Shown here: piece after piece, positions 20,959-37,358 of the stretch | How the letters are laid out: each line of letters opens with the position of its first letter | Position numbering within the stretch: position 1 is the stretch's first letter | NCBI RefSeq assembly: GCF_035918015.1 | Contig: NZ_CP109132.1 | Span: forward strand, 4,898,001-4,962,000 | DNA from: Streptomyces sp. NBC_01754 | Lineage (GTDB): Bacteria; Actinomycetota; Actinomycetes; Streptomycetales; Streptomycetaceae | Length of the DNA: 64,000 bases | Direction of reading: 5' to 3' | The notes under the pieces: model-generated | What the model was told of the DNA's origin: nothing | Databases searched by the model: none | What the model saw: only the letters and a program-made list of their open reading frames with translations | Position numbers and translations under genes: made by a program

Positions 20959-21843
20959 GTGCCGACCGCAATAGCAGTGACAAGCACGGACCTGGTGCTG
21001 CCGCCGACCGATCAGCAGACACCGACGGCGGCCTTGCTACAGCCCCCGGACGCCCAGGAGTTCGAGCCGGCCATCGGCGACATGCACCTGCTCCTGGAAC
21101 AGCACGGCCATGTGGTCGCGGTCTACCCCGCGGGGATCAGCCCCGCACACGAGCGCAGGATGCACGCCGTCCGGTCGGTCCTGGAGAGCGACCGCATCGC
21201 CCTGCTCAAGGTGGATCTCCCTCCACTCGGTGTCGCCGTGCTGGTGCGTCAGTTACGCCAGTTGTCCCTCTGCGACTTCAGCCCCGGGGTCGTGGCCTCG
21301 GCCGCCCGGCTCCTCGCCCACTACATCCACGCGGGCGCGCTCCTGAACTCGGTGGCCCGGCTCGACCGGGTGCCCGTCACCCTCACGACGCACGCCAGGT
21401 CATGGGTGCCGGGCTCGCAGTTCGCCGTACTCGCCTCGCCCCGCCCGCAACTCGTCAGGATCGGTCCGGCCGCCGAACCGCCGGCCGGTCCCGAGTTCGC
21501 CACGCACCTGGTTGTCGCCAGGGGCCAGTCGGCCTCCCCGTGGGTGCGGCAGACGCTGGCCCCCGCCTGGCAGGTCCAGGACGTCCAGGAGTGCGCGCTG
21601 CCCTCGGCCTCCCCGGGCTGGTGGGGCACCGGGAAGATCGTGGAGTTCGCCGCCTACCTGCCGGACGTCTCGGTCCTCTACCAACTCGTCTCCTCCGTAC
21701 GGCGGGAGGGCTGCCACTGGTGCGGGATGGAACTCATCGGGGACCGGTGCGGGTTCTGCTCCTCACCACTGGCGCCGCCCGGGCACCGTGCCCGCCCGCC
21801 GGCGCTCCTGCCCCGGGGAACGGCCGCGCCACCGGGCCACTAG
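20959..21843 (+). CDS. Tad-cluster protein of unknown function with C-terminal zinc ribbon
   Basis: A 294-residue protein starting at GTG 20959 behind GGGGAAGAGC. I do not recognise the family. The body is a soluble alpha/beta region (DMHLLLEQHGHVVAVYPAGI, ALLKVDLPPLGVAVLVRQLR). Near the end CHWCGMELIGDRCGFC (Cys252, Cys255, Cys264, Cys267) forms a compact zinc ribbon, followed by a Pro-rich tail. Leu99 is encoded by TTA (21253-21255), so full translation should need the bldA tRNA. It lies 110 bases ahead of cpaB on the same strand; that position suggests a regulatory or assembly role in the pilus system, which is inference. Confidence 0.8.
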   Translation: MPTAIAVTSTDLVLPPTDQQTPTAALLQPPDAQEFEPAIGDMHLLLEQHGHVVAVYPAGISPAHERRMHAVRSVLESDRIALLKVDLPPLGVAVLVRQLRQLSLCDFSPGVVASAARLLAHYIHAGALLNSVARLDRVPVTLTTHARSWVPGSQFAVLASPRPQLVRIGPAAEPPAGPEFATHLVVARGQSASPWVRQTLAPAWQVQDVQECALPSASPGWWGTGKIVEFAAYLPDVSVLYQLVSSVRREGCHWCGMELIGDRCGFCSSPLAPPGHRARPPALLPRGTAAPPGH

Positions 21844-21953
21844 CGCCCGGACGACGCCGCGGCGGACCCGGTACGTCCCCCGCCCGCCGCAGACCCGGCG
21901 AAGCCCCCTGACCGCCGCTCACGCATCCGATCCGAACGAGGTTGTCCAGGCCC

Positions 21954-22658
21954 ATGAACTCCCGCCAGCGCCGAGGCGTGATACTCCTGATCCTGTCGGT
22001 CCTGTGCGCCCTCGGCGCCTTCGCCGGAGTGCTCTCGGTGATCAGCGACGTCAACTCGAAGGTCGGGCCCGAGGTCGCCGCCTACCGGCTGAAGGCCGAT
22101 GTGCCGCCGTACACGGCACTGTCCCCGAAGCAGTTCGAGAAGGTCTCGATGCCCCGGCGGTGGCTCTCGGACAACGCCGTCACGGACCTGGCCGAGGTCC
22201 GGGGGAAGATCGCCGTCACCGAACTGCGGAAGGGCTCCCTGATGCAGTCCGACATGATGGTGAAGACGCCCGAACTCCGCCCCGGGGAGCAGGAGATCGC
22301 CATCATGATCGACGCCGCGACGGGCGTCGCGGGCAAGATCCGCCCCAACGACAGGGTGAACATCTACGCCACCTTCGCCGGGGAGCGGGACGGTGAGGCG
22401 GCCCAGTCCAAGGTCATCGTCTCCGGCGCCAAGGTCCTGGACGTCGGTCAGCTGACCGCGCTGGAGCCGGACAGGGACGACAGGAACCGGGCGCCCGAGG
22501 CGGTGCCGATCACCTTCGCGCTCAGCACGGCCGACACCCAGCGCGTCGCCTACGCGGAGTCCTTCGCCAAGCACGTACGTCTCGCGCTGATCGCCCCCGG
22601 CGGCGACGGAACCGTGCGGCCCGGCGACCGCACCTACACGCTCGACAAGGACAAGTGA
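21954..22658 (+). CDS. cpaB: Flp pilus assembly protein CpaB/RcpC
   Basis: A 234-residue protein beginning MNSRQRRGVILLILSVLCAL, with one N-terminal membrane helix (about residues 8-30) and the rest outside. The next portion is an SAF-like domain (YRLKADVPPYTALSPKQFEK, KIAVTELRKGSLMQSDMMV) and then the RcpC/CpaB domain (AIMIDAATGVAGKIRPNDRV). In Gram-negative Tad systems CpaB is periplasmic and linked to the secretin; actinomycetes lack the secretin, so here it probably binds the cell wall side of the assembly machine. Seven bases separate it from cpaE, so it heads the core operon. Confidence 0.87.
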   Translation: MNSRQRRGVILLILSVLCALGAFAGVLSVISDVNSKVGPEVAAYRLKADVPPYTALSPKQFEKVSMPRRWLSDNAVTDLAEVRGKIAVTELRKGSLMQSDMMVKTPELRPGEQEIAIMIDAATGVAGKIRPNDRVNIYATFAGERDGEAAQSKVIVSGAKVLDVGQLTALEPDRDDRNRAPEAVPITFALSTADTQRVAYAESFAKHVRLALIAPGGDGTVRPGDRTYTLDKDK

Positions 22659-22665
22659 GGATCGG

Positions 22666-23946
22666 ATGACCACGAGAATCCTCCCGGCCGTCGGCGACGC
22701 CGACGCGGCCAGGTCCGTCACCACGCTGCTCAGCCGGCTCCCCGACGCGGAGCCGGCGGCGCCGGTCGGTGATTCCACGCAGCTCATCGACACCCTCGCC
22801 CGGCTGGCCGGCGAGTCCATCGAGGAACTGCCGGAGGCCGTGCTGGTCCACGAGCGGATCGGCCCCGTCCCCGCGCTGGAACTGATCCGGGAGATCTCCC
22901 TGCGCTTCCCCGCCGTGGGGGTCGTGCTGATCACCGCGGACGCGAGCCCCGTCCTGTTCGCCGCGGCCATGGACGCGGGGGCGCGGGGCCTGGTCACCCT
23001 CCCCCTCGGCTACGAGGAGCTCGCCAACCGCGTGCAGGCCGCCGCCCAGTGGTCCACCGGCATGCGGCGCCACCTCGGGCCGGGCGGCGAGTCGTCCTCC
23101 GGCCCCGGCGGCACGGTCGTCACCGTCACCGGCGCCAAGGGCGGAGTGGGGGCGACCGTCACGGCCGTACAGCTGGCCCTGGCCGCACAGGCGTCCGGGC
23201 ACACGGTGGTGCTCGTCGACCTGGACCTCCAGACCGGGGACGTGGCCGCCTACCTCGACGTCCAGTTCCGCCGCTCCGTCGTCGACCTGGCGACCATCAC
23301 CGACATATCGCCACGGGTCCTGTCGGACGCCGTCTTCTCGCACGACACGGGTCTGGCCCTGCTGCTGGCACCCGCCGAGGGCGAACGGGGGGAGGAGATC
23401 AGCGACCGCTCCGCCCGTCAGATCGTCGGCGCCCTGCGCTCACGGTACGAGGTCGTCGTCATCGACTGCGGGAGCCAGATGAGCGGGGCCAACGCCGCGG
23501 CGGTCGAGATGGCCGACACCGCCGTGCTGGTGACGACGCCGGACGTGGTGGCGGTGCGGGGCGCGAAGCGCATCGTCCGGATGTGGGACCGGCTACAGAT
23601 CCGCAAGGCGCAGGAGACGGTCTCCGTCGTCAACCGCTTCAACCGGAACACCGAGATCCAGCCCCCGCTGATCCAGCGGATCACCGGCACCCGGATGGCG
23701 GGCACCTCCGTACCCGCGAACTTCAAGGAACTCCAGGGCGCGGTGGATTCCGGCCGGATGCACGAGCTGGACCCGCGCTCCACGGTCAAGCAGGCCCTGT
23801 GGGCCCTGGCGGGGGAGCTGGGGATCGTGAAGCCCGGCCCGGGAGGGGCGGGCGCGCGCGGCGGCCTGCTGCGCGGCGACAAGGGCTCGATCGGAGGCCG
23901 TCGGCGCAAGGGCGGACCGGCCGGGCGGGGAGGCCGGTCACGATGA
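22666..23946 (+). CDS. cpaE: CpaE/TadZ-like pilus localisation ATPase
   Basis: A 426-residue MinD/ParA-type protein. The N-terminal 130 residues are a receiver-like pseudo-domain (PAVGVVLITADASPVLFAAA). The ATPase part has a deviant Walker A at 155-165, TGAKGGVGATV, in which the second lysine position is Ala; TadZ proteins are known for such altered loops. Switch and Walker B regions are VVLVDLDLQTGDVAAYL and VVVIDCGSQMSG. TadZ places the pilus machine at the pole or septum, and this copy would do so in the hypha. The C-terminus is Gly/Arg/Lys-rich and basic. Its stop overlaps the next ATG (ATGA). Confidence 0.88.
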   Translation: MTTRILPAVGDADAARSVTTLLSRLPDAEPAAPVGDSTQLIDTLARLAGESIEELPEAVLVHERIGPVPALELIREISLRFPAVGVVLITADASPVLFAAAMDAGARGLVTLPLGYEELANRVQAAAQWSTGMRRHLGPGGESSSGPGGTVVTVTGAKGGVGATVTAVQLALAAQASGHTVVLVDLDLQTGDVAAYLDVQFRRSVVDLATITDISPRVLSDAVFSHDTGLALLLAPAEGERGEEISDRSARQIVGALRSRYEVVVIDCGSQMSGANAAAVEMADTAVLVTTPDVVAVRGAKRIVRMWDRLQIRKAQETVSVVNRFNRNTEIQPPLIQRITGTRMAGTSVPANFKELQGAVDSGRMHELDPRSTVKQALWALAGELGIVKPGPGGAGARGGLLRGDKGSIGGRRRKGGPAGRGGRSR

Positions 23947-24356
23947 CCACGACCGGGACACGGGGCCGGATACCGGGGCGGCTGCGGGACGACCGCGGAC
24001 AGCTGATCGTCGAGTTCACCGGGATGCTACCGATCCTCCTGGTGACACTGGTGCTGCTCTGGGAGGCGGTCCTGGTGGGCTACACCTTCGTCCTGGCAGC
24101 CGGTGCGGCGGACGAGGGGGTGCGCAGGGCGGTCGGCGCGGGCACCCGGGGAGACGGGGGCGCGTGCCGGGAAGCCGTGCTGGAGCGGCTCCCGAGTGCC
24201 TGGGAGGGATCAGCGCGGATCGACTGCGGCTCCCCCGGAAGCGGCGACGTGGTCCGGGTCGGCGTGACCCTCAGGGCCCCCGTGCTCTTCCCGGGGTTCG
24301 TGGGCCTTCCCATCCCCGTCACGGCGACGGCCGGTGCGCCCGTGGAAGGAAGGTGA
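23943..24356 (+). CDS. TadE-like pseudopilin
   Basis: A 137-residue protein whose ATG overlaps the cpaE stop by four bases. The TadE signature follows a short basic lead: RDDRGQLIVEFTGMLPILLV, with Gly before the cleavage site and Glu at the fifth position of the mature form, then one membrane helix. The remaining 85 residues would be extracytoplasmic with one Cys pair (ACREA, IDCGS). TadE and TadF proteins are minor pseudopilins processed by the prepilin peptidase. It is followed seven bases later by a second member. Confidence 0.85.
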   Translation: MTTTGTRGRIPGRLRDDRGQLIVEFTGMLPILLVTLVLLWEAVLVGYTFVLAAGAADEGVRRAVGAGTRGDGGACREAVLERLPSAWEGSARIDCGSPGSGDVVRVGVTLRAPVLFPGFVGLPIPVTATAGAPVEGR

Positions 24357-24362
24357 GGCGAC

Positions 24363-24893
24363 ATGAAGCCGATACGGACGTCACCGCCGGGCCGTGGACC
24401 GGCCGGTCGCGGCGCGGACCGCGGCTCGAGCGCGCTGGAGTACCTCGGCTTCCTGCCCGTCCTCATCCTCATCGGTCTGGCGGGCATCCAGCTCGGGCTG
24501 ATCGCGTACACCGCGCAGCAGGCGGGCACCGGCGCCCGGGCGGCCGCCCGGGCCGCCTCGCAGGAGGAGCTGCGCGGCTCGTACGAGCATGTCGGCAAGG
24601 CGTCCATGACCGGCTGGGTCGCCGACCGCGCGCGGATCGGACCGCCGACGGGCGGCGACACGGTGACGGTGAGGGTCACGGTCCGCATCCCGGACGTCCT
24701 GCTCGGGCTGCTCGGCGACCGTACCGTCGTGAAGTCCGCCACCATGCCACGCGACCTCACCCCGAGGAGGCCCGCCACACACGACTCCACCGCACGGGAC
24801 TTCACCGACCGCGATTCCGGCACCCACGTCTCTGCCGCACGGGGCGTCACCACCCACGACTTCACCACCCGCGCCCCGGCCACCCACGACTGA
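24363..24893 (+). CDS. Second TadE/TadF-like pseudopilin with Thr/His/Asp-rich tail
   Basis: A 176-residue protein with the same plan as its upstream neighbour: RGSSALEYLGFLPVLILIGL contains the Glu-Tyr pair and membrane helix of TadE/F proteins. The first 130 residues look conventional. The last roughly 45 (from PRRPATHDSTARDFTDRDSG onwards) are low-complexity repeats of Thr-His-Asp and Asp-Phe-Thr, encoded by short imperfect DNA repeats at about 24768-24890. That tail is unusual and probably fast-evolving. It is in the Tad operon, 31 bases before cpaF. Confidence 0.82.
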   Translation: MKPIRTSPPGRGPAGRGADRGSSALEYLGFLPVLILIGLAGIQLGLIAYTAQQAGTGARAAARAASQEELRGSYEHVGKASMTGWVADRARIGPPTGGDTVTVRVTVRIPDVLLGLLGDRTVVKSATMPRDLTPRRPATHDSTARDFTDRDSGTHVSAARGVTTHDFTTRAPATHD

Positions 24894-24924
24894 CGGCACC
24901 CATCCCATCCGAGGAGAACCACCC

Positions 24925-26262
24925 ATGAGCCTGCGGGCACGCATCACCGCCCCCGAGGAGCGCGGAGGGGGACGGGAGGACGGCCACCTGGTCGCCACGT
25001 ACCGCGCGAAGCTCCTGGAGGAGATCGACCTCGCCGAGATGTCCTCGCTCCCCGCAGCCGACCGCCGGGCCCGGCTGGAACGCGTCCTGGGACACGTCAT
25101 CAGCCGCGAGGGGCCGGTCCTCTCCACCGCCGAACGCTCCCAGCTCATCCGCCGCGTCGTCGACGAGGCGCTCGGACTCGGCGTACTCGAACCGCTCCTG
25201 GAGGACGCCTCCATCACCGAGATCATGGTCAACGGGCCCGACCAGATCTTCGTCGAACGCGCGGGCAGGGTCGAACAGCTCCCGATGCGCTTCGCCAGCC
25301 ACGAACAGCTCATGCAGACGATCGAACGCATCGTCTCCACCGTCAACCGCCGGGTGGACGAGGCCAATCCGATGGTCGACGCGCGCCTGCCCAGCGGCGA
25401 GCGCGTCAACGTGATCATCCCGCCGCTCTCGCTCACCGGCGCGACCCTCACCATCCGCCGCTTCCCCAGGTCCTTCTCGCTCCACGAGATGACCGGCCTC
25501 GGCTCGCTGGACCAGCAGATGCTGCTGCTGCTCGCCGGCCTCGTGCAGGCCAAGTTCAACGTGATCGTCTCCGGGGCCACGGGCACCGGGAAGACCACAC
25601 TCCTCAACGCGCTCTCCGGGCTCATCCCCGACGGTGAACGCATCGTGACCATCGAGGACTCGGCCGAGCTCCAGCTCCAGCAGAACCACGTGATCCGGCT
25701 GGAGAGCCGCCCGGCCAACGTGGAGGGGAAGGGCCGGGTCACCATCCGCGACCTCGTCCGCAACTCGCTGCGCATGCGTCCCGACCGCATCGTCGTCGGT
25801 GAGGTCCGTGGCGGTGAGGCCCTCGACATGCTCCAGGCGATGTCGACCGGCCACGACGGTTCGCTGGCCACCGTCCACGCCAACAGCGCGGAGGACGCCC
25901 TGATGCGGCTCCAGACCCTCGCGTCGATGTCCGAGATCAAGATCCCCTTCGAGGCGCTGCACGACCAGATCAACAGCGCCGTGGACGTGATCGTCCAGCT
26001 CACCCGGCACGCCGACGGGACCAGGAAGATCACCGAGATCGCGGTGCTCGACTCGCACGGCCGTGCCCCGTACCGGATCGTCACCGTGGCCCGGTTCGAC
26101 GCCCGGCCGATGGACGCCGACGGTGTGATCCAGGGTGAGTTCCAGCCCCTCCCGCTCCCGCGTCGTGTCGCCGACCGGCTCCACATGGCCGGACAGCCGG
26201 TCCCGCAGGCCTTCGGGGTCGCGCCGTCGGACGCGTACCTCGCCACCCGAGAGGCCGGATAG
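24925..26262 (+). CDS. cpaF: Pilus assembly/secretion ATPase CpaF/TadA
   Basis: A 445-residue type II/IV secretion NTPase. An N-terminal helical domain (to about 130) is followed by the catalytic core with Walker A SGATGTGKTTLLNAL (Lys223), the EDSAELQL Asp box, and Walker B RPDRIVVGEVRGGEALDMLQ; a His-box-like SLATVHANSAEDALMRL follows. It powers pilin polymerisation on the cytosolic face of TadB/TadC. The start ATG has GAGGAGAACCACCC upstream. Length and motif order are standard for the family. A nine-base gap leads to tadB. Confidence 0.95.
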   Translation: MSLRARITAPEERGGGREDGHLVATYRAKLLEEIDLAEMSSLPAADRRARLERVLGHVISREGPVLSTAERSQLIRRVVDEALGLGVLEPLLEDASITEIMVNGPDQIFVERAGRVEQLPMRFASHEQLMQTIERIVSTVNRRVDEANPMVDARLPSGERVNVIIPPLSLTGATLTIRRFPRSFSLHEMTGLGSLDQQMLLLLAGLVQAKFNVIVSGATGTGKTTLLNALSGLIPDGERIVTIEDSAELQLQQNHVIRLESRPANVEGKGRVTIRDLVRNSLRMRPDRIVVGEVRGGEALDMLQAMSTGHDGSLATVHANSAEDALMRLQTLASMSEIKIPFEALHDQINSAVDVIVQLTRHADGTRKITEIAVLDSHGRAPYRIVTVARFDARPMDADGVIQGEFQPLPLPRRVADRLHMAGQPVPQAFGVAPSDAYLATREAG

Positions 26263-26271
26263 GTACCCGCC

Positions 26272-27207
26272 ATGGACAACCTCGCACCCCTCACCCTCGG
26301 CGTCACGCTGCTGTGCTGCGTACTCGGCGTCGCGGGACTGCACGCCTACGCGTCGGGCAGGGCGCAGCGTGAAGCGCTCGTGGAACGGCTCACCTCGACC
26401 GGACCGGGCGACACCGGCCCGCGGCGCCGCTTCGGAAAGCTGGACCGGCGGCTGCGCCGGACGGCACCGGGCAAGAGGATCGAACGGAAACTCGCGGCGA
26501 CCGGCCTCGACATCTCCACCGGTGAGTACGTCGTCCACGTCGTGTGCGCGGTGGCCGCCCTCTGGCTGATCGCGGCCTCGGTCCTCGCGGCCTTCTTCGG
26601 CCCCCTCGCCGGGGTCATCGGCGTCTGGGGGGCCAACACCTTCCTGAACTGGCACCGCGCCAAGCGCACCGAGGCGTTCATCAGCCAGCTGCCCGAGGTC
26701 TCCCGGGTCCTCGCCAACGCCACCCAGGCGGGGCTCTCCCTGCGTACCTCCATCGCCATGGCCGCGGACGAACTCGAGGCACCCGCGGGTGACGAACTCC
26801 GTGTCGTCGCCGACCAGCTCGCCGTCGGCCGCACCCTGGACGACGCCCTCGACGAACTGGCCGCCCGACTGCCCTCACGCGAGCTCGTCGTCCTCGTCTC
26901 CACGCTGATCCTCTCCAACAGGGCCGGCGGGCAGGTCGTCTCCTCGCTGCGCAACCTCACCATCACCCTGGAGGAGCGCAAGGAGACGCGCCGTGAGGTC
27001 CGCACCCAGCTCTCCCAGATCACCACCACCGCCTACGCGGTCCCGGCCATCGGAATCGGGGCCATGCTCCTCGTGAACTCGATCCTGCCCGGGGCCCTCG
27101 ACCGGATGACGGGATCGCTCGTCGGCCAGATCGCGGTCGTCGTGTCCCTGGGCCTCTACGCCCTCGGGTTCGTCGCCATCCGCCGCATTTCCAAGATCGA
27201 TATCTGA
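26272..27207 (+). CDS. tadB: Tad inner-membrane platform protein TadB
   Basis: A 311-residue type II secretion F-like protein: N-terminal helix (LTLGVTLLCCVLGVAGLHAY), two central helices around 85-125, the T2SSF domain (LPEVSRVLANATQAGLSLRT, then LDELAARLPSRELVVLVSTL) and two C-terminal helices (IGIGAMLLVNSILPGA, QIAVVVSLGLYALGFVAI). With TadC it forms the membrane platform that CpaF acts on. It has no internal duplication, as expected for a TadB/TadC pair. Fourteen bases separate it from tadC. Confidence 0.9.
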   Translation: MDNLAPLTLGVTLLCCVLGVAGLHAYASGRAQREALVERLTSTGPGDTGPRRRFGKLDRRLRRTAPGKRIERKLAATGLDISTGEYVVHVVCAVAALWLIAASVLAAFFGPLAGVIGVWGANTFLNWHRAKRTEAFISQLPEVSRVLANATQAGLSLRTSIAMAADELEAPAGDELRVVADQLAVGRTLDDALDELAARLPSRELVVLVSTLILSNRAGGQVVSSLRNLTITLEERKETRREVRTQLSQITTTAYAVPAIGIGAMLLVNSILPGALDRMTGSLVGQIAVVVSLGLYALGFVAIRRISKIDI

Positions 27208-27221
27208 GGGAGGGGACCGGT

Positions 27222-28109
27222 ATGGAACTGCTGCTCGCCGCCGTCGTCGGCCTCAGCGTGTTCGGTGTCTTCAAGGGCGTACGGATGTACCGCGCGGAGG
27301 CGACCCTCCCCGGCGACCTCGCCCTCGCCCTGGAGGTGGGCTCCACCCGCACCACCGCGGTGGGCTCGGGCCTCGACCGGCTGGGCATGCGCTGGGCGCC
27401 TCTGGTGCTGCGCCTGATGGGACCCAGGAGGGTCAGCGAGAAACGCCGGAAGATCGACATGGCCGGCAACCCCGGCGGCCTCACGATCGACCGCTACGCC
27501 GCCCGCCGTGCCGTGTACAGCGGCCTCGGAGGGTTCGCGGCCTTCGCGATGCTCGCGAGCGGCAAGCTCCTCATGGCCGTGTTCATGGTCGCGTTCGGCC
27601 TGTTCTGGGGGGAGGTGGGCATCTGGGCCGCCGTACGCAAGCGCCGGGACGACATCGACCGTACGCTCCCCGACTTCCTGGACGTCCTCGCCGTGGTCGT
27701 CTCCGCCGGCCTCGGATTCCGCCAGGCCCTCGACCGGGTGGCCGAGAAGTACCAGGGCCCCTGGGCCGACGAACTGCGCATCACCCTGCGCCAGATGGAC
27801 ATGGGCGTGAGCCGCCGGCAGGCCTTCGACGCGTTACGCAGGCGCAACGACTCCGAACAGGTCGCCATGTTCGTCACCGCGCTCCAGCAGGGCGAGGAGC
27901 TCGGGGCGCCGATCGTCGACACCCTCATCGCCCTCGCGAACGACATGCGCCGCACCGACGCCCAGAACGCGCGGCGCAAGGCGGCCAAGGCGGTCCCCAA
28001 GGCCACACTGATGGTCACCACCTTCATGATCCCCGCCACCATCATCCTCATGGGCGCGGCCATGCTGCTCGGATCCGACACGAACCTCGGATCCCTCACC
28101 GGGGAGTGA
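27222..28109 (+). CDS. tadC: Tad inner-membrane platform protein TadC
   Basis: A 295-residue T2SSF protein paired with TadB. Helices at the N-terminus, around residues 100-137 and at the C-terminus (LMVTTFMIPATIILMGAAML) flank the conserved LPDFLDVLAVVVSAGLGFRQ domain. Leu205 is encoded by TTA (27834-27836), a codon that is rare in Streptomyces and read by the bldA tRNA, so pilus platform assembly would depend on the developmental stage. It starts at ATG 27222 with GAGGGAGGGG upstream and lies ten bases before the histidine kinase gene. Confidence 0.9.
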   Translation: MELLLAAVVGLSVFGVFKGVRMYRAEATLPGDLALALEVGSTRTTAVGSGLDRLGMRWAPLVLRLMGPRRVSEKRRKIDMAGNPGGLTIDRYAARRAVYSGLGGFAAFAMLASGKLLMAVFMVAFGLFWGEVGIWAAVRKRRDDIDRTLPDFLDVLAVVVSAGLGFRQALDRVAEKYQGPWADELRITLRQMDMGVSRRQAFDALRRRNDSEQVAMFVTALQQGEELGAPIVDTLIALANDMRRTDAQNARRKAAKAVPKATLMVTTFMIPATIILMGAAMLLGSDTNLGSLTGE

Positions 28110-28119
28110 GCGGCCGCCG

Positions 28120-29493
28120 ATGACGATCCCCCTCCAGCCGGGCCGCGCCGAGGAAGCACGGCAACCCGCCCCGTCCACCCCGGCGGGCGGGTCACCCACC
28201 GTGTCCCTCCAGGTCAACGCCCTCTCGGCGCTCGCCCGCCAGGTGTTCCTCTTCCGGCTGGCCATGATCGCCATCGGCACCCCTCAGGCCCTGGACAACA
28301 CCGCGCCCGGGGTCCCGAGCTGGCTGGTCGCCTCCGCCGTCCTGGTCACGGTCGTCGGTTCGTACGCCCTCTACCGCGACTGGGAACGCTTCGGCCCCCT
28401 CCTGGTGCGCTTCCCACTGCTGCTCGGCGCCGACACGGTCTTCGGAGCCCTGCTCCTGTTCACCGCCACACCCGAGTCCACCCTCGGATACGTGGTCGTC
28501 TGCACCCCGCTCCTGGCCGGGCTGCTGTACGGGTGGCGGTCGGCGGGCGTCTTCGCCGTGGTCCAGATACTGATCCTGGCCGCCGCCTACGGCGCCGACC
28601 GGCAGCCCCGCTCCTCGTTGGCCGGCGTGCTGCTGCTCCCGGGCTTCTGCGTGCTCGCCGGCGCGGTCGGCGTGACCCTGCGCAACCTGATGTTGCGGAT
28701 CGGCACCGCCGGCCAGGCACTGACCGAGACCCGGGCCCGGCTCGCCGCCAACGAGGCCGTCGAGGACGAACGCGCCCGGCTCGCCCGCGAGATGCACGAC
28801 TCCGTCGCCAAGACCCTGCACGGACTGGCCCTGGCCGCCGAGGGTCTGGCCCACTCCGCCGACCGCGTGGACCCGCTCACCGTCAGGCACCAGGCCGAAC
28901 TGGTGGCCCGTTCCGCACGACGGGCCGCCGCCGAGTCCCGCGAACTCCTCTCCGACCTGCGCCGCGCGTCCGGCCTGGACGGCGGAGCGGACCTCGTCGG
29001 CGAACTCCGGGCCAGAGTGGACGACTTCGCCCGCCGCCACGGTACGACCACCGTGTTCCGCACCCTCGGTGACGTCCCGGTGCCGCCGGTCCCGCAGATC
29101 GTCGCCCGGAACCTGCTGGCGGTGGCCTCCGAAGCGATGGAGAACGCCCATCGGCACGCCCGCCCCTCGTACCTCGTCGTTCTGGCCGGCATCGAGGGCA
29201 CCGTCCTGCGCGTCAGCGTGTACGACGACGGCCTGGGCCTGCCCGAGGGGATCACTCTCGACGAGCTCAAGCGGGCCGGCCACTTCGGGCTCGTCGGCAT
29301 GGTGGAACGCGCGGCCTCGATCGGGGCCCGCATCCGCATCGGCAGGGGTGAGGCGGCCCAGGGGACGGAGGTACGCGTGGAACTGCCCACAGCACCCCTC
29401 GCCTCGCACCTGGGACCGGGGGCGGGGCCGCACTCGGGGCCGGGGCCGCCTCGGGGACACGTGCGGCTGCCGGGGCCGGGGCCACCTGGGTGA
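28120..29493 (+). CDS. Sensor histidine kinase of the NarL/DesK type
   Basis: A 457-residue membrane kinase. Five or six hydrophobic helices fill residues 35-195, followed by a HisKA_3 dimerisation region (LAREMHDSVAKTLHGLAL, His226) and an HATPase_c domain (NLLAVASEAMENAHRHA as N-box; YDDGLGLPEG as G1; HFGLVGMVERA). No separate extracytoplasmic sensor domain is visible, so the signal is probably sensed in or at the membrane. The C-terminus is a Gly/Pro/His low-complexity tail of about 35 residues. It belongs to the Tad operon and should phosphorylate the response regulator at 29731. Confidence 0.9.
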   Translation: MTIPLQPGRAEEARQPAPSTPAGGSPTVSLQVNALSALARQVFLFRLAMIAIGTPQALDNTAPGVPSWLVASAVLVTVVGSYALYRDWERFGPLLVRFPLLLGADTVFGALLLFTATPESTLGYVVVCTPLLAGLLYGWRSAGVFAVVQILILAAAYGADRQPRSSLAGVLLLPGFCVLAGAVGVTLRNLMLRIGTAGQALTETRARLAANEAVEDERARLAREMHDSVAKTLHGLALAAEGLAHSADRVDPLTVRHQAELVARSARRAAAESRELLSDLRRASGLDGGADLVGELRARVDDFARRHGTTTVFRTLGDVPVPPVPQIVARNLLAVASEAMENAHRHARPSYLVVLAGIEGTVLRVSVYDDGLGLPEGITLDELKRAGHFGLVGMVERAASIGARIRIGRGEAAQGTEVRVELPTAPLASHLGPGAGPHSGPGPPRGHVRLPGPGPPG

Positions 29494-29730
29494 TCCGTAG
29501 CGGTGGGACGGTCCGATGGGGGTGCTCCCGTGTACGGGCTCCGCCTGGCCTGGCCGGCCCGTACGGCAGGGGTCCGCCTCGCCAGGTCGCTCCCGTAGCC
29601 GTACCGGCCGACCCGGAACCGCTGCCCCGCCTTCGCCCCGCCTGGCCTTGCCGCCCCACCTCGCCTGCCCCGGCCGGCATCCGCATCACCGCTCCGATCC
29701 GTCCCTACCGCACCTGAGAGGAGCCGCAGA

Positions 29731-30834
29731 ATGCCGGACGACGTCTTTTGCGCTTCGGGCCGGAACTGGCCGCCCACGGACCGTGCTTCCCCGCACCCCT
29801 TCCCGCCCCCTTCTCTGCCCCCCTCCCCGCACTCCACTGCCCCCAGCGCCGATCACAGCCTCCCCGGGCCTCTGGCCACCCGGCACGCACCGGCACCGGC
29901 ACCGGCACCGTTGCCCCGGTTGCCCTGTGCCCCCGGCCGTTCGGCACCTGAGCTGCTGCGGGTCGTGGTCGCCGACGACAACCCGGTCGTGAGAGCCGGC
30001 CTCGGAGTCCTGCTCGGCAGGCGTGGCGACATCGAGGTGGCGGCGGAAGCGGCGGACGGGCGTGAGGCCTACGACGCGGCTGTACGCCACCGCCCCGATG
30101 TGGTCCTGCTCGACGTCCGGATGCCCGGCGTGGACGGCATCTCCGCCCTGCCTCATCTGGTGCGGGTCGCACCCGTGATGATGCTGACGTACAGCCGCGA
30201 GAGCGACATCGTCCACGAGGCGTTACGCCTCGGAGCGGGTGGCTATCTGGTCCACGGCGAGTTCACGGCGGACCAGTTGGTCCAGGCCGTGCGCGACACG
30301 AAGAGCGGCAGGGCACATTTCACCGCCACGGCCGCCGACGCCCTCCTCGCCCATGTACGCCGGAACCCGCACCAGCCACCGCGACACCTTCCGGAAGGCC
30401 TGGGAACAGCGCTGACGACCGGAGGCGGCCCGCCTGCGCGCCCCGGCATTCCGGCGGAGAGAGACCCGTACGCCGTTCAGCGGCCGACCCCCTTCGGCGC
30501 GAGGCCCGCCGACCGGACGGAAGACCTTTCACGACTGCAACCCGTTGTGGCACAGTCTTCCACTGACGGTGACCGGTACCGTCGACGGGTTGTTAACAGG
30601 CAGCAGTACAGGCTGAGTTCGCGAGAGGCGGAGGTCATGGAACTCATCGCGTCCGGGATGAGCAACCCCCAGATCGCCGCCACCTGCTTCATCAGCGAGA
30701 AGACGGTCAAGAACCACATCAACAGAATCTTCACCAAGCTCCACAGCGGCAGTCGCAGTGAAGCGATCGCCCGCTGGCTCGGCACGGCGCCGGACTCGGT
30801 TCCTGGAACGAGGGGGCCGGGCCGCCATGACTGA
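29731..30834 (+). CDS. NarL-family response regulator with long Pro-rich N-terminus
   Basis: A 367-residue regulator. The ATG at 29731 has GAGAGGAGCC upstream, so the unusual 74-residue Pro/Ala lead (including APAPAPAP from a GGCACC repeat) appears genuinely translated. The receiver has Asp82/Asp83 and phospho-acceptor Asp128 (VVLLDVRMPGVDG), but the conserved switch lysine is replaced: GYLVHGEF where GYLLK is usual. A long linker leads to the LuxR-type helix-turn-helix (LSSREAEVMELIASGMSNPQ and SEKTVKNHINRIF). Leu165 is encoded by TTA (30223-30225), predicting bldA dependence. It probably controls the pilus genes; target sites are unknown. Confidence 0.9.
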   Translation: MPDDVFCASGRNWPPTDRASPHPFPPPSLPPSPHSTAPSADHSLPGPLATRHAPAPAPAPLPRLPCAPGRSAPELLRVVVADDNPVVRAGLGVLLGRRGDIEVAAEAADGREAYDAAVRHRPDVVLLDVRMPGVDGISALPHLVRVAPVMMLTYSRESDIVHEALRLGAGGYLVHGEFTADQLVQAVRDTKSGRAHFTATAADALLAHVRRNPHQPPRHLPEGLGTALTTGGGPPARPGIPAERDPYAVQRPTPFGARPADRTEDLSRLQPVVAQSSTDGDRYRRRVVNRQQYRLSSREAEVMELIASGMSNPQIAATCFISEKTVKNHINRIFTKLHSGSRSEAIARWLGTAPDSVPGTRGPGRHD

Positions 30835-31061
30835 ACGGGTGAAGAAGGCCCCTCGGACGGGGACACGAACGGGAGAAAGGACCCACCGGGACCTTTGGGC
30901 CCGGCTTTGGGCCCAGGGACCCTGCGGGGCCCGCGACACCCGGCCGTACGTTGCCGGGGTCACCAATGGCACCGGCCAGGCGGAAGCCGGTAACGCAGGT
31001 GCTGCGACAGGGACTTACGCGCCGACCGGTGACGGATCGGCCGAAACCGGAGGGGAACACC

Positions 31062-31286
31062 ATGAGCAACCCGATGCTGAGGGCTTCCGTCAACGCCAGG
31101 GTCTGGGCGAACACCTCCGTCGAGCGCATGAAGGCCCGGGCCGACCGGGGGCAGGGTGCGGTGGAGTACCTGGGCATCATCGTGGTGGTCGTGGCGATCA
31201 TTGTGGTGCTGATGACGACGAACTTCGGGAGTGCAATCGCTGGTGCGATCACGGACCAGATCAACAACATCACCGGCGCCGAGTAA
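31062..31286 (+). CDS. flp: Flp family type IVb major pilin
   Basis: A 74-residue pilin. The ATG at 31062 lies behind GGAGGGGAAC. After a basic lead, RADRG/QGAVEYLGIIVVVVA shows the Flp processing site: cleavage after Gly gives Glu at +5 and Tyr at +6 of the mature pilin, then a single hydrophobic helix and a short polar C-terminus (DQINNITGAE). The prepilin peptidase at 36534 is the likely processor and methylase. It is separated from the response regulator by 227 bases, so it may have its own promoter, as abundant pilins usually do. Confidence 0.92.
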   Translation: MSNPMLRASVNARVWANTSVERMKARADRGQGAVEYLGIIVVVVAIIVVLMTTNFGSAIAGAITDQINNITGAE

Positions 31287-31336
31287 CCACCGGACGGTTT
31301 TGCGAGGCAGGGCAGGCCTTCCCCATCTACATCGCG

Positions 31337-31924
31337 GTGGTGGCGGGCTTGCTCTTTCTTGCGTTTGCCTACTTCGCCGTCGGCCAGGCTTCGATGAAGA
31401 AGAATGAGGCCCAGACCGCCGCCGACGCTGCCGCTCTCGCTGCCGCGCAGGACGCAAGGGATCAGTGGAGCTGGCCCGGTGCTTTCGATTTCGAGAAGTG
31501 GGACGACCTGATGAGCGGTCGGGACATCAGGGCGGGATCGTGTTCCGCAGCCGGTCGGCTTGCGGCGGAAAACGATGCTCATGCGATTTCCTGTGGCCCG
31601 GAGTACTGGCCCGAGGTCTCCTACACGGTCACGGTCGAGACCAATGAGGCCGTAGGTAGCTCGGTAATTGCCAGCACCAAGGCGCAAAAGGCCAAAGCGA
31701 CCGCCAGAGCGGTGATCGAGCCTCGTTGTCATATCGCAGAGAGTGAGCGTCCCGCGCCGAGTCCGCCAAAGGAGGACGATGGTGACACGGACGATGCTGG
31801 GGGGGAGGAGTCGTACAAAGCTATCTGCGACGACGAAGACTTCAACTTCACCATCGACCCCAAGAGGCTTGACCTGCTGCCCGATATAGCAGACCTTTTC
31901 TCCGTCCATCTGGCCGACAAGTAA
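31337..31924 (+). CDS. TadG/TadE-like membrane protein without a clear start codon
   Basis: The product carries the TadG-type lead AGQAFPIYIAVVAGLLFLAF followed by KNEAQTAADAAALAAAQDARD, typical of actinomycete Tad-domain pilus proteins. The frame is open through flp, but between about 31130 and 31336 it has no ATG, GTG or TTG. The first usable start is GTG 31337, which lies inside the conserved helix and has no ribosome site, giving 195 residues. The conserved lead begins 33 bases earlier. Either a rare start is used, or a small deletion removed the start (a TTG at 31300 is out of frame). C-terminal half: Cys-containing, acidic and Pro-rich. Visibly lower GC than neighbours. Confidence 0.7.
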   Translation: MVAGLLFLAFAYFAVGQASMKKNEAQTAADAAALAAAQDARDQWSWPGAFDFEKWDDLMSGRDIRAGSCSAAGRLAAENDAHAISCGPEYWPEVSYTVTVETNEAVGSSVIASTKAQKAKATARAVIEPRCHIAESERPAPSPPKEDDGDTDDAGGEESYKAICDDEDFNFTIDPKRLDLLPDIADLFSVHLADK

Positions 31925-31951
31925 GTGAAAGTCACCGAGAGGAATACGCCG

Positions 31952-32545
31952 ATGCGTACAGCCACGACCTGGATTCGCTTCAGGGGGGCAGCCGTGGCTG
32001 CCGCCTCCGTAGCCATGGCTGTCGTGCTGACGGCTTGTGGGGGCAATGGCGGTTCGGACAAATCGAAAGAGGAAGGAGATGCTAAGGCGTCCGGGACTGA
32101 TAGCAATCAGAAGACGGAGGAGCAATCGCCAGCTCGGAATGACGAATCCCAGGTGCTGGGGACGATGAAGAGCGCGGATGGAATTGAAGTCGTCATCAAC
32201 TCGGCACAGCGAGATTCAGGCGGATTCGTTACTGTCAAGGGGCGCGTGAAGAATGAGTCGCGTAGTCGGTTCACAGCGCAAGGGTGGCAAGGGGCGGAGC
32301 GGGAGATGAGGGGAAATGGTGCCTCAGTTGCTGGTGCGTCCTTGATCGATCAGGCAGGGAAGAAGAGATATCTGGTGTTGCGAGACACGGATGGGCGCTG
32401 CCTTTGCACGCAGTTCGTGAGTGGGATTGCCGCAGGGAAGGAAGCTTCGTTCTTCGCACAGTTCCCCGCCACTCCCGTCGAAACCACCGAGGTCGACTTC
32501 CAGATCCCCACCATGCCCACCGCGACGATCAAGATCTCGGGGTGA
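31952..32545 (+). CDS. Tad-cluster lipoprotein
   Basis: A 197-residue protein from ATG 31952, eight bases after GAGAGGA; the GTG at 31925 in the same frame lacks a ribosome site. The signal peptide ends in the lipobox VVLTACGG, so it should be lipid-anchored to the outer face of the membrane. A Ser/Lys/Glu-rich spacer precedes a beta-rich domain (GIEVVINSAQRDSGGFVTVK) that resembles the immunoglobulin-like domains of actinomycete lipoproteins, with paired Cys in RCLCTQF. Codon use is AT-richer than neighbours. Its stop overlaps the OmpA-like start (GTGA), so the two are coupled. Confidence 0.82.
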   Translation: MRTATTWIRFRGAAVAAASVAMAVVLTACGGNGGSDKSKEEGDAKASGTDSNQKTEEQSPARNDESQVLGTMKSADGIEVVINSAQRDSGGFVTVKGRVKNESRSRFTAQGWQGAEREMRGNGASVAGASLIDQAGKKRYLVLRDTDGRCLCTQFVSGIAAGKEASFFAQFPATPVETTEVDFQIPTMPTATIKISG

Positions 32546-33201
32546 CGACCGCAATGCATCCACACGCCCCCACACCGGATGTCCCCCGAAGCACCCAGCG
32601 GCGCCACATCGGTGCCTGCGCCGCCGCAGCGGTGGTCCTCGGCGCATCGATGCTCTGGGGGGCCACCCCCGCATTCGCCGACGACGACCCCACCACCGTT
32701 CCCAGCGCCTCCCCCCCGGTGGAGGTGGACGCCAACTCCCCCGGACTCATGCTCGGTGACGGAGCGACACTGGGCAACATCCGTGTTCTCGACATCAAAT
32801 CGATCGTCGAGGACATGGGCGGGGAGGAGCGCCGCGAGGACACGAACGCGGACATCACGCTGGCCCTCCAGGCTGAGGTCCTCTTCGGCAAGGACAGCGC
32901 GAAGCTGAGCGGCGAGGCTACGGCGCGTATCAACGCGATCGCCGAAGAGATCAAGAACCTGAACGCCACCAAGGTGCGTGTATTCGGGTTCACCGACAAC
33001 CTGGGCTCCTCCGCCCACGGCGACATCCTCTCCAAGCAGCGGGCCAACGCCGTGCAGGGTGTGTTGGCCCCGAAACTCCCGAGCGTGACCTTCGAGATTC
33101 GCGGCTACGGCGAGCAGTACCCCATCTCCTCCAACGACACGGAGGAGGGCCGCAAGAAGAACCGCCGTGTGGAGATCTCCTTCCCGCGTACCGGCGGTTA
33201 G
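32542..33201 (+). CDS. OmpA family peptidoglycan-binding protein
   Basis: A 219-residue protein from GTG 32542, overlapping the lipoprotein stop (GTGA); an ATG at 32554 is the alternative. A signal peptide (AAAVVLGASMLWGATPAFAD) is followed by a Pro/Ser linker and a C-terminal OmpA/MotB domain (EVLFGKDSAKLSGEATARIN, FGFTDNLGSSAHGDILSKQR, GYGEQYPISSNDTEEGRKKN, RRVEISF). The domain binds peptidoglycan; here it would anchor the pilus or the neighbouring lipoprotein in the cell wall. As the last gene of the cluster it may stabilise pili across the thick wall, which is inference. Confidence 0.87.
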   Translation: MTTAMHPHAPTPDVPRSTQRRHIGACAAAAVVLGASMLWGATPAFADDDPTTVPSASPPVEVDANSPGLMLGDGATLGNIRVLDIKSIVEDMGGEERREDTNADITLALQAEVLFGKDSAKLSGEATARINAIAEEIKNLNATKVRVFGFTDNLGSSAHGDILSKQRANAVQGVLAPKLPSVTFEIRGYGEQYPISSNDTEEGRKKNRRVEISFPRTGG

Positions 33202-36533: not shown

Positions 36534-37358
36534 GTGGACGCCACACTGATTGCGGTCGCCGTGCTCTGGGGCGCCGCCACCGGACTGCTGCTGCCGCGGA
36601 TCGCGTACCGGTTCTCCGTCGAGCCGGAAGAGCCGTGGCGGGCCGCCTGTCCGGCCGGGCACCCGCTCACCGGACCCGGTCGCGGCTGGATCGGCTCGGC
36701 GACCTGTACGAGTTGCGCCCTGGCCGCCGTACCCACGCACCAGGACGGTACGGGGGCGGCCCCCGAGGGTGCCCCGGAGGCCGCCGTACCGACCGCGCGT
36801 CCCCGATGTGCCCCCCGCTACGCCCCCGCGGCCGTCCCCCCGGCCGTCACCGCACTCGTCTGCGCGGCCCTCGCCTGGGCCGTCGGGCCCCGTCCGGAAC
36901 TCGTCGTATGGCTGGCGGTGACGCCCGTCGCGGTCCTCCTCGCCGTGATCGACCACCGGGTCCACCGGCTGCCCGACCTGCTGACCCTGCCGCTGGCCGC
37001 CGTGACGGCCCTGCTGCTCGGGGGCGCGGCGCTGCTCCCCGGACACGCGGGCTCCTGGATCACGGCCCTGCTCGGCGGCGCCGCGCTCGGTGGCTTCTAC
37101 CTCCTGCTCTTCCTGATCAACCCGCACGGCATGGGTTTCGGAGACGTGAAGCTCGCCCTGGCCCTCGGACTGGCCCTCGGCTGGTACGGATGGGCCGTCG
37201 TGTGCGCGGGCGGCTTCGCCGGGTTCCTGTTCGGCGCGCTGTACGGGGGCGGCCTGATGCTGCTGCGCCGGGCCGGGCGCAAGACCGGCATCCCGTTCGG
37301 TCCGTTCATGATCGCGGGGGCGCTGCTCGGCCTGCTGGCCGGCGGCCTCGCGGTCTGA
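36534..37358 (+). CDS. Prepilin peptidase (A24 family, TadV-like)
   Basis: A 274-residue membrane aspartyl protease from GTG 36534. Both catalytic aspartates are present: Asp140 in AVIDHRVHRLPD and Asp204 in GMGFGDVKLALAL. About seven helices; a cytosolic loop after the first has Cys39, Cys58 and Cys61 (CPAGH, TCTSC), a reduced form of the zinc site in PilD-type enzymes, so methylase function is uncertain. It would cleave the lead of the Flp pilin and TadE proteins. It lies 3.3 kb beyond the Tad cluster with unrelated genes between. Confidence 0.9.
   Translation: MDATLIAVAVLWGAATGLLLPRIAYRFSVEPEEPWRAACPAGHPLTGPGRGWIGSATCTSCALAAVPTHQDGTGAAPEGAPEAAVPTARPRCAPRYAPAAVPPAVTALVCAALAWAVGPRPELVVWLAVTPVAVLLAVIDHRVHRLPDLLTLPLAAVTALLLGGAALLPGHAGSWITALLGGAALGGFYLLLFLINPHGMGFGDVKLALALGLALGWYGWAVVCAGGFAGFLFGALYGGGLMLLRRAGRKTGIPFGPFMIAGALLGLLAGGLAV

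Follow-up and report, generated by a model that had tools for sequence, protein, structure and literature searches.

TTA codons in the Tad pilus cluster of Streptomyces sp. NBC_01754 and a recurrent TTA site in its leader gene across the genus

In Streptomyces, the codon TTA is read by the tRNA that is encoded by bldA. Two established cases of UUA gating are adpA and a regulator of contractile-injection systems (PMC4255298, PMC10020575). Between 2 and 3% of Streptomyces genes contain TTA, and a TTA gene is present in 42 of 56 contractile-injection (eCIS) regions (PMC10020575). According to Chater and Chandra, most TTA genes of S. coelicolor are unshared or have lost the codon in other species, and adpA is the one gene with TTA in each of the 14 genomes; their table of frequently TTA-containing genes, as far as available, includes no Tad or pilus gene (PMC4255298). 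Some UUA transcripts are also read without bldA (PMC4932002, PMC3814723). Concerning pili, the tad-1 and tad-2 loci of Micrococcus luteus serve DNA uptake (PMC4322843), and the PilFind survey has a row for S. avermitilis with three tad operons and four pilins (PMC3244431), so that tad loci in Streptomyces are already in print. A literature search combining Streptomyces with Tad, Flp, CpaF, TadE, and pilus plus TTA, with subscription journals mostly outside its coverage, found no paper devoted to a Streptomyces Tad pilus. Here, we analyze a Tad/Flp-type pilus cluster of Streptomyces sp. NBC_01754, in which a leader gene, the platform gene tadC and a response-regulator gene each contain a TTA codon. 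It lies on the plus strand of a stretch of 64,000 nucleotides (contig NZ_CP109132.1, positions 4,898,001 to 4,962,000), which is called the window, and to which the positions below refer.

On the basis of these three codons, an initial annotation had proposed that the pilus is switched on late in development by bldA, both through its regulator and through its own machinery. A comparison with orthologues points in another direction. We think it probable that this is an ordinary, genus-wide Tad pilus locus, in which the TTA codons of tadC and of the response regulator are recent private changes and not a conserved developmental switch, and in which TTA recurs at codon 99 of the leader, where it may act as an optional gate for bldA.

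TTA at the three sites and across the cluster genes

The three TTA codons are indeed present and in frame, as codon 99 of the leader gene (21253-21255), codon 205 of tadC (27834-27836) and codon 165 of the response-regulator gene (30223-30225), and a reading-frame artefact was ruled out, as all of them lie in conserved frames. The 13 cluster genes included in the count have 380 leucine codons, of which these are 3, and neither the putative lipoprotein gene nor the prepilin peptidase gene contains TTA. The genome has one tRNA-Leu gene with the anticodon TAA. Its background was estimated from 464 kb (the window and 20 stretches of 20 kb, with genes called by a crude procedure, which overlooked the response regulator), where TTA occurs in 10 of 357 called genes and makes up 10 of 12,627 leucine codons (0.079%).

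The cluster itself is widespread. A tadC query gave matches in 292 of 295 genomes of the genus, with paralogues counted, and the leader was found in 130 of 132 genus genomes versus 0 of 15 genomes from other families of the same order, which suggests that the leader protein is restricted to Streptomyces within the sample. Of 146 loci, 138 keep the gene order, and in 7 the best match to the regulator lies upstream of tadZ. Since the kinase is present in 173 of 203 loci and the response regulator in 184, neither is universal. Judged from these matches, the cluster is part of the common gene stock of Streptomyces, in nearly all sampled species.

For the codon comparison, 220 loci were read for orthologues and 203 were kept, each with a distinct tadC, after 17 had been dropped whose tadC stretch was identical to that of another locus. 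The sample is not random: it consists of the 80 best tadC matches of 369, of 80 further loci that were picked by hand among the matches listed of 292 genus hits, mainly on long contigs, and of 60 loci hand-picked from leader matches; without duplicates, the three sets comprise 80, 66 and 57 loci. One best tblastn piece was read per gene, which misses TTA in split or unaligned parts (the C-terminal end of the leader in a few loci, and the linker of the regulator); the median aligned coverage was 0.99 for the leader and 0.93 for the regulator, with a minimum of 0.17, and genes truncated at contig ends were excluded from their counts. A tree was built from five concatenated genes, and state changes on it were compared with 200 label shuffles.

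At the two sites in tadC and the response regulator, TTA was found in no relative. Codon 205 of tadC is CTG in 175 of the 203 loci, otherwise CTC (16), CTA (7), TTG (4) or CTT (1), and codon 165 of the response regulator, aligned in 160, is CTG in 120, CTC in 18, TTG in 9, CTA in 3 and not a leucine codon in 10. The seven species closest on the tree have CTG at tadC 205, CTG or CTC at regulator 165 and CTG or CTT at leader 99; in six of them, the aligned portions of all 13 genes contain no TTA, and the seventh has TTA in tadF. Thus, the TTA codons of tadC and of the regulator are private to this genome within the sample, and the leader TTA of the window would have arisen after the split from its neighbors.

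The two private codons sit in the same nine bases, GCGTTACGC (27830-27838 and 30220-30228); as regards a shared element, further TTA codons in this genome also lie in GCG TTA CG. In tadC, GAACTG of the relatives corresponds to GCGTTA in the window, with four of six adjacent bases changed together.

Across the genus, TTA is unevenly distributed over the cluster genes. Anywhere in the aligned gene, it was found in the leader in 36 of 197 sequences, in the response regulator in 16 of 184 and in the kinase in 8 of 173, further in tadE (8/203), tadF (4/203), tadZ (1/200) and tadG (1/198), while no TTA was detected in cpaB (200 sequences), tadA, tadB and tadC (203 each), flp and the OmpA-domain gene (196 each). 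When the genes are grouped, a grouping that was chosen after the first TTA counts were known, the apparatus and pilin genes (cpaB, tadZ, tadA, tadB, tadC, flp, tadG and the OmpA-domain gene) have 2 TTA and 934 TTG among 48,561 leucine codons, and the leader, response regulator, kinase, tadE and tadF have 74 TTA and 627 TTG among 25,737. The TTG count serves here as a yardstick of relaxed codon choice, and also the TTG-rich apparatus genes are poor in TTA, with 68 TTG in flp, 262 in tadG and one TTA between both. The base that follows is C at 10 of 10 TTA codons in the genes called from the sample of the own genome and at 38 of 54 in the Tad orthologues. If only codons followed by C are considered, the apparatus genes have 1 TTA and 265 TTG versus 33 and 211 in the other genes without codon 99. 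TTA thus seems to be largely excluded from the apparatus genes, as it is from core genes generally, and the tadC gene of the window is the exception. At least one gene with TTA is present in 53 of the 190 full clusters; 14 of these have more than one such gene and none has three, so that the cluster of the window, with TTA in three genes, is unusual among full clusters.

Leader codon 99 and the leader protein

In 195 species, leader codon 99 is CTG in 72, TTG in 64, TTA in 26, CTC in 21, CTA in 7, CTT in 1 and ATG in 4. Among the leader orthologues, TTA is a minority state, but a recurrent one: of the 340 leucine sites that are covered by more than 100 sequences each, no other has as many as three TTA, here 26 of 191 leucines, and the combined share of TTA and TTG at codon 99, 90 of 191 leucines or 47%, is the highest of all. 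Counting the window, 27 tips of the tree carry TTA, and 20 changes are required to account for them, where shuffled labels gave a mean of 25.8 and a minimum of 22, suggesting that gains and losses of TTA are frequent at this site and only weakly clustered, whereas the combined TTA/TTG state is inherited, with 28 changes versus 64.7 in the shuffles. All 26 TTA codons at this site are followed by C, and the ratio of C-followed codons is 26 TTA to 41 TTG. The base context as sole cause of this hotspot was rejected, given the single TTA versus 265 TTG among C-followed apparatus codons.

Several explanations of this site have to be weighed. A strong codon-pair bias exists in the own genome, where the share of TTG among leucine codons rises from 1.9% overall to 11.1% after CAG, so that TTA or TTG is expected at leader 99, and TTG is one step away from TTA. 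Other TTG-rich sites preceded by CAG (tadB 183, leader 102, leader 191 and tadA 119) have no TTA at all, with TTG counts of 50 at tadB 183 and 47 at leader 102. The absence of TTA at the latter two sites, together with the singularity of codon 99 among the 340 sites and the 20 changes on the tree, speaks for a selected, recurrent bldA gate, in which UUA in the first gene would slow or uncouple translation of the leader early in growth and polarity would lower the expression of the downstream pilus genes. We nevertheless regard such a gate as distinctly unlikely, as the bias favors these codons anyway, TTG is commoner than TTA at the site, and the leader is separated from cpaB by a gap of about 110 bases, with a shared transcript being putative. 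A translational slow-down for folding, for which TTG and TTA would be interchangeable slow codons and bldA irrelevant, is consistent with the inherited TTA/TTG state, its top share among the sites and the weak clustering of TTA itself; it appears rather unlikely as well, since 52% of the species use other leucine codons here and the bias after CAG accounts for part of the pattern. More far-reaching is the idea that codon 99 of the Streptomyces-specific leader is a convergent UUA checkpoint of the whole pilus operon, at which species turn developmental gating on or off by exchanging one base between TTG and TTA in a DegV-like first gene that may sense lipids, with an apparatus free of TTA and a window strain that added UUA to regulator and platform; we consider this very improbable.

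The leader protein is predicted to adopt a DegV/FakB-like fold, and its C-terminal tail has four cysteines in 139 of 139 aligned orthologues. It has no Pfam or NCBIfam match, a Pfam search of 50 leader orthologues gave no DegV match at E 1, and searching the sequences of the PDB with a profile of the leader gave nothing at E 1. Comparison with DegV of Streptomycetales by hhalign, based on 13 sequences in shallow alignments, resulted in a probability below 1% and E 0.75. As for membership in the DegV/FakB family, the predicted fold is alike, but the profile comparison showed no sequence kinship. Compared with the fatty-acid-binding DegV/FakB proteins, the leader is 11% identical and carries the four-cysteine tail in addition.

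Late bldA switch or private drift

The model of the initial annotation, a late onset of the pilus under bldA control by way of the TTA codons in the regulator, platform and leader genes, finds support in the in-frame position of the codons, in the tRNA-Leu(TAA) gene of the genome and in the established UUA gating of adpA and of the contractile-injection regulator (PMC4255298, PMC10020575). In this one genome, a bldA dependence of the three genes would follow from established codon biology, although some UUA transcripts are read without bldA. We judge this model, however, to be very unlikely. TTA is not kept in the regulator and platform orthologues, as would be expected of a conserved bldA-gated system: it occurs in 0 of 203 at tadC 205 and in 0 of 160 at regulator 165, and the three TTA codons are missing in the seven closest species. 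The apparatus genes are almost free of TTA throughout the genus, so that gating through the machinery itself, as suggested by the initial annotation, is not a property of the Tad pilus and at most a quirk of this strain. Also the share of 53 of 190 Tad clusters with TTA is lower than the 42 of 56 contractile-injection regions with a TTA gene (PMC10020575, from the available text), although the region sizes differ. Most orthologues use other leucine codons at tadC 205 and regulator 165, and by majority at the leader site too. The proposed switch thus fails for the platform, while for the regulator it is lost at codon 165 and retains some support from TTA at other positions, and for the leader it stands against a majority with other codons but on a site where TTA recurs.

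Several observations weigh against our own reading of an ordinary locus with private TTA codons. With an expectation of 0.30 TTA for the cluster, the probability of three or more is P = 0.0036, a mild value that counts as post hoc because the cluster had been chosen for its TTA codons. The species share ancestry, so that Fisher values for the gene comparisons are descriptive only. Three TTA codons in leader, regulator and platform of one strain could be a recent adaptation instead of drift. The 16 of 184 species with TTA elsewhere in the regulator gene would fit an optional bldA link via the regulator.

In the reading that we prefer, the cluster most likely builds a surface filament, and the kinase and response regulator would, by their family membership, control its transcription. 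The TTA codons at tadC 205 and regulator 165 would be private drift on a genus background that is mostly free of TTA in the apparatus. At leader 99, TTA seems to come and go repeatedly, and since it is gained and lost so often, bldA may set the timing of the leader in about one in seven species. As two of the three codons were found in none of about 200 relatives, TTA in a single Streptomyces genome is weak evidence of bldA control unless orthologues are compared. The single leucine codon of the leader gene that is repeatedly TTA, beside nearly TTA-free apparatus genes, is a testable lead, and if bldA acts there, it would provide an easy way into the question of when Tad pili are made in Streptomyces.

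Gene content and comparison with known systems

Protein families were assigned by Pfam and NCBIfam searches (Table 1). The locus contains a TadA-type ATPase with two PF00482 (T2SSF) platform proteins, a Flp pilin with TadE/G-like minor pilins (the Flp_Fap and one PF07811 match being below cut-off), CpaB/RcpC (TIGR03177) and TadZ, the ATPase domain of which is above cut-off. The cluster was initially annotated as complete up to position 33201, and this holds for the assembly core and the pilins, but the sole PF01478 match of the genome, in the prepilin peptidase gene, lies beyond that end. A tblastn match to the peptidase was found 3' of the cluster in 15 loci, where most sampled loci end too early to show it.

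Table 1. Genes of the Tad/Flp-type cluster in window positions.
Feature	Position	Strand	Assignment and remarks
Leader gene	20959-21843	+	Predicted DegV/FakB-like fold and C-terminal CxxC-x8-CxxC zinc-ribbon-like tail; TTA is codon 99
CpaB/RcpC, SAF domain	21954-22658	+	PF16976 and TIGR03177 above cut-offs
TadZ/CpaE-like ATPase	22666-23946	+	AAA_31 above cut-off; TIGR03815 under its cut-off
TadE-like minor pilin	23943-24356	+	PF07811 21.4 bits, just under cut-off 22.9; start overlaps tadZ stop
Second TadE-like protein, named tadF here	24363-24893	+	PF07811 30 bits, above cut-off
TadA/CpaF assembly ATPase	24925-26262	+	TIGR03819 333.5 bits, under its cut-off 373
TadB platform protein	26272-27207	+	PF00482 above cut-off
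TadC platform protein	27222-28109	+	PF00482 above cut-off; TTA is codon 205
Histidine kinase	28120-29493	+	HisKA_3 above cut-off
NarL-type response regulator, long linker	29731-30834	+	Response_reg and GerE above cut-offs; TTA is codon 165
Flp-type pilin	31062-31286	+	PF04964 23.7 bits, under cut-off 32.2; RGQGAVEY, judged by eye, resembles a processing motif
TadE/G-like protein (tadG), start codon not fixed	31298-31924	+	PF13400 above cut-off
Putative lipoprotein	31952-32545	+	Open frame, lipobox-like start by eye
Secreted OmpA-domain protein	32554-33201	+	PF00691 above cut-off
Prepilin peptidase (TadV)	36534-37358	+	PF01478 match at 36921-37244, only one in genome

In 196 of 203 loci, the cluster ends with the OmpA-domain protein, although Streptomyces have no outer membrane. 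The receiver of the response regulator contains a conserved GYLVHGEFT (30223-30285), in which 122 of the roughly 126 sequences aligned have histidine at position 175, where NarL-type receivers usually have lysine. A search of plasmids with TadC gave only matches below 60% identity, none of them covering 80% of the query.

The available PilFind passages on the S. avermitilis tad operons do not discuss TTA codons or a leader. Among the closest known systems, the actinobacterial Tad/Flp loci tad-1 and tad-2 of M. luteus and the flp operon of Mycobacterium tuberculosis contain tadA, tadB, tadC, TadE-like proteins and a Flp pilin as the present cluster does, and the prepilin peptidase is likewise encoded apart (PMC4322843, in its available parts). 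M. luteus has two tad loci per genome, and the genome of the window also has a second, smaller tad-like locus (genome positions 3243797-3246479) with an ATPase that is 45% identical to TadA and two PF00482 matches. In contrast to the M. luteus and M. tuberculosis loci, as far as these are covered by the available text, the array here includes the leader, CpaB, the kinase, the response regulator and the OmpA-domain gene; the M. luteus loci have a role in DNA uptake. As in adpA and the contractile-injection regulators, TTA is found here in a regulator gene, but while the adpA codon is present in 14 of 14 genomes, two of the TTA codons described here occur in no other sampled species, and 26 of 195 species share the third.

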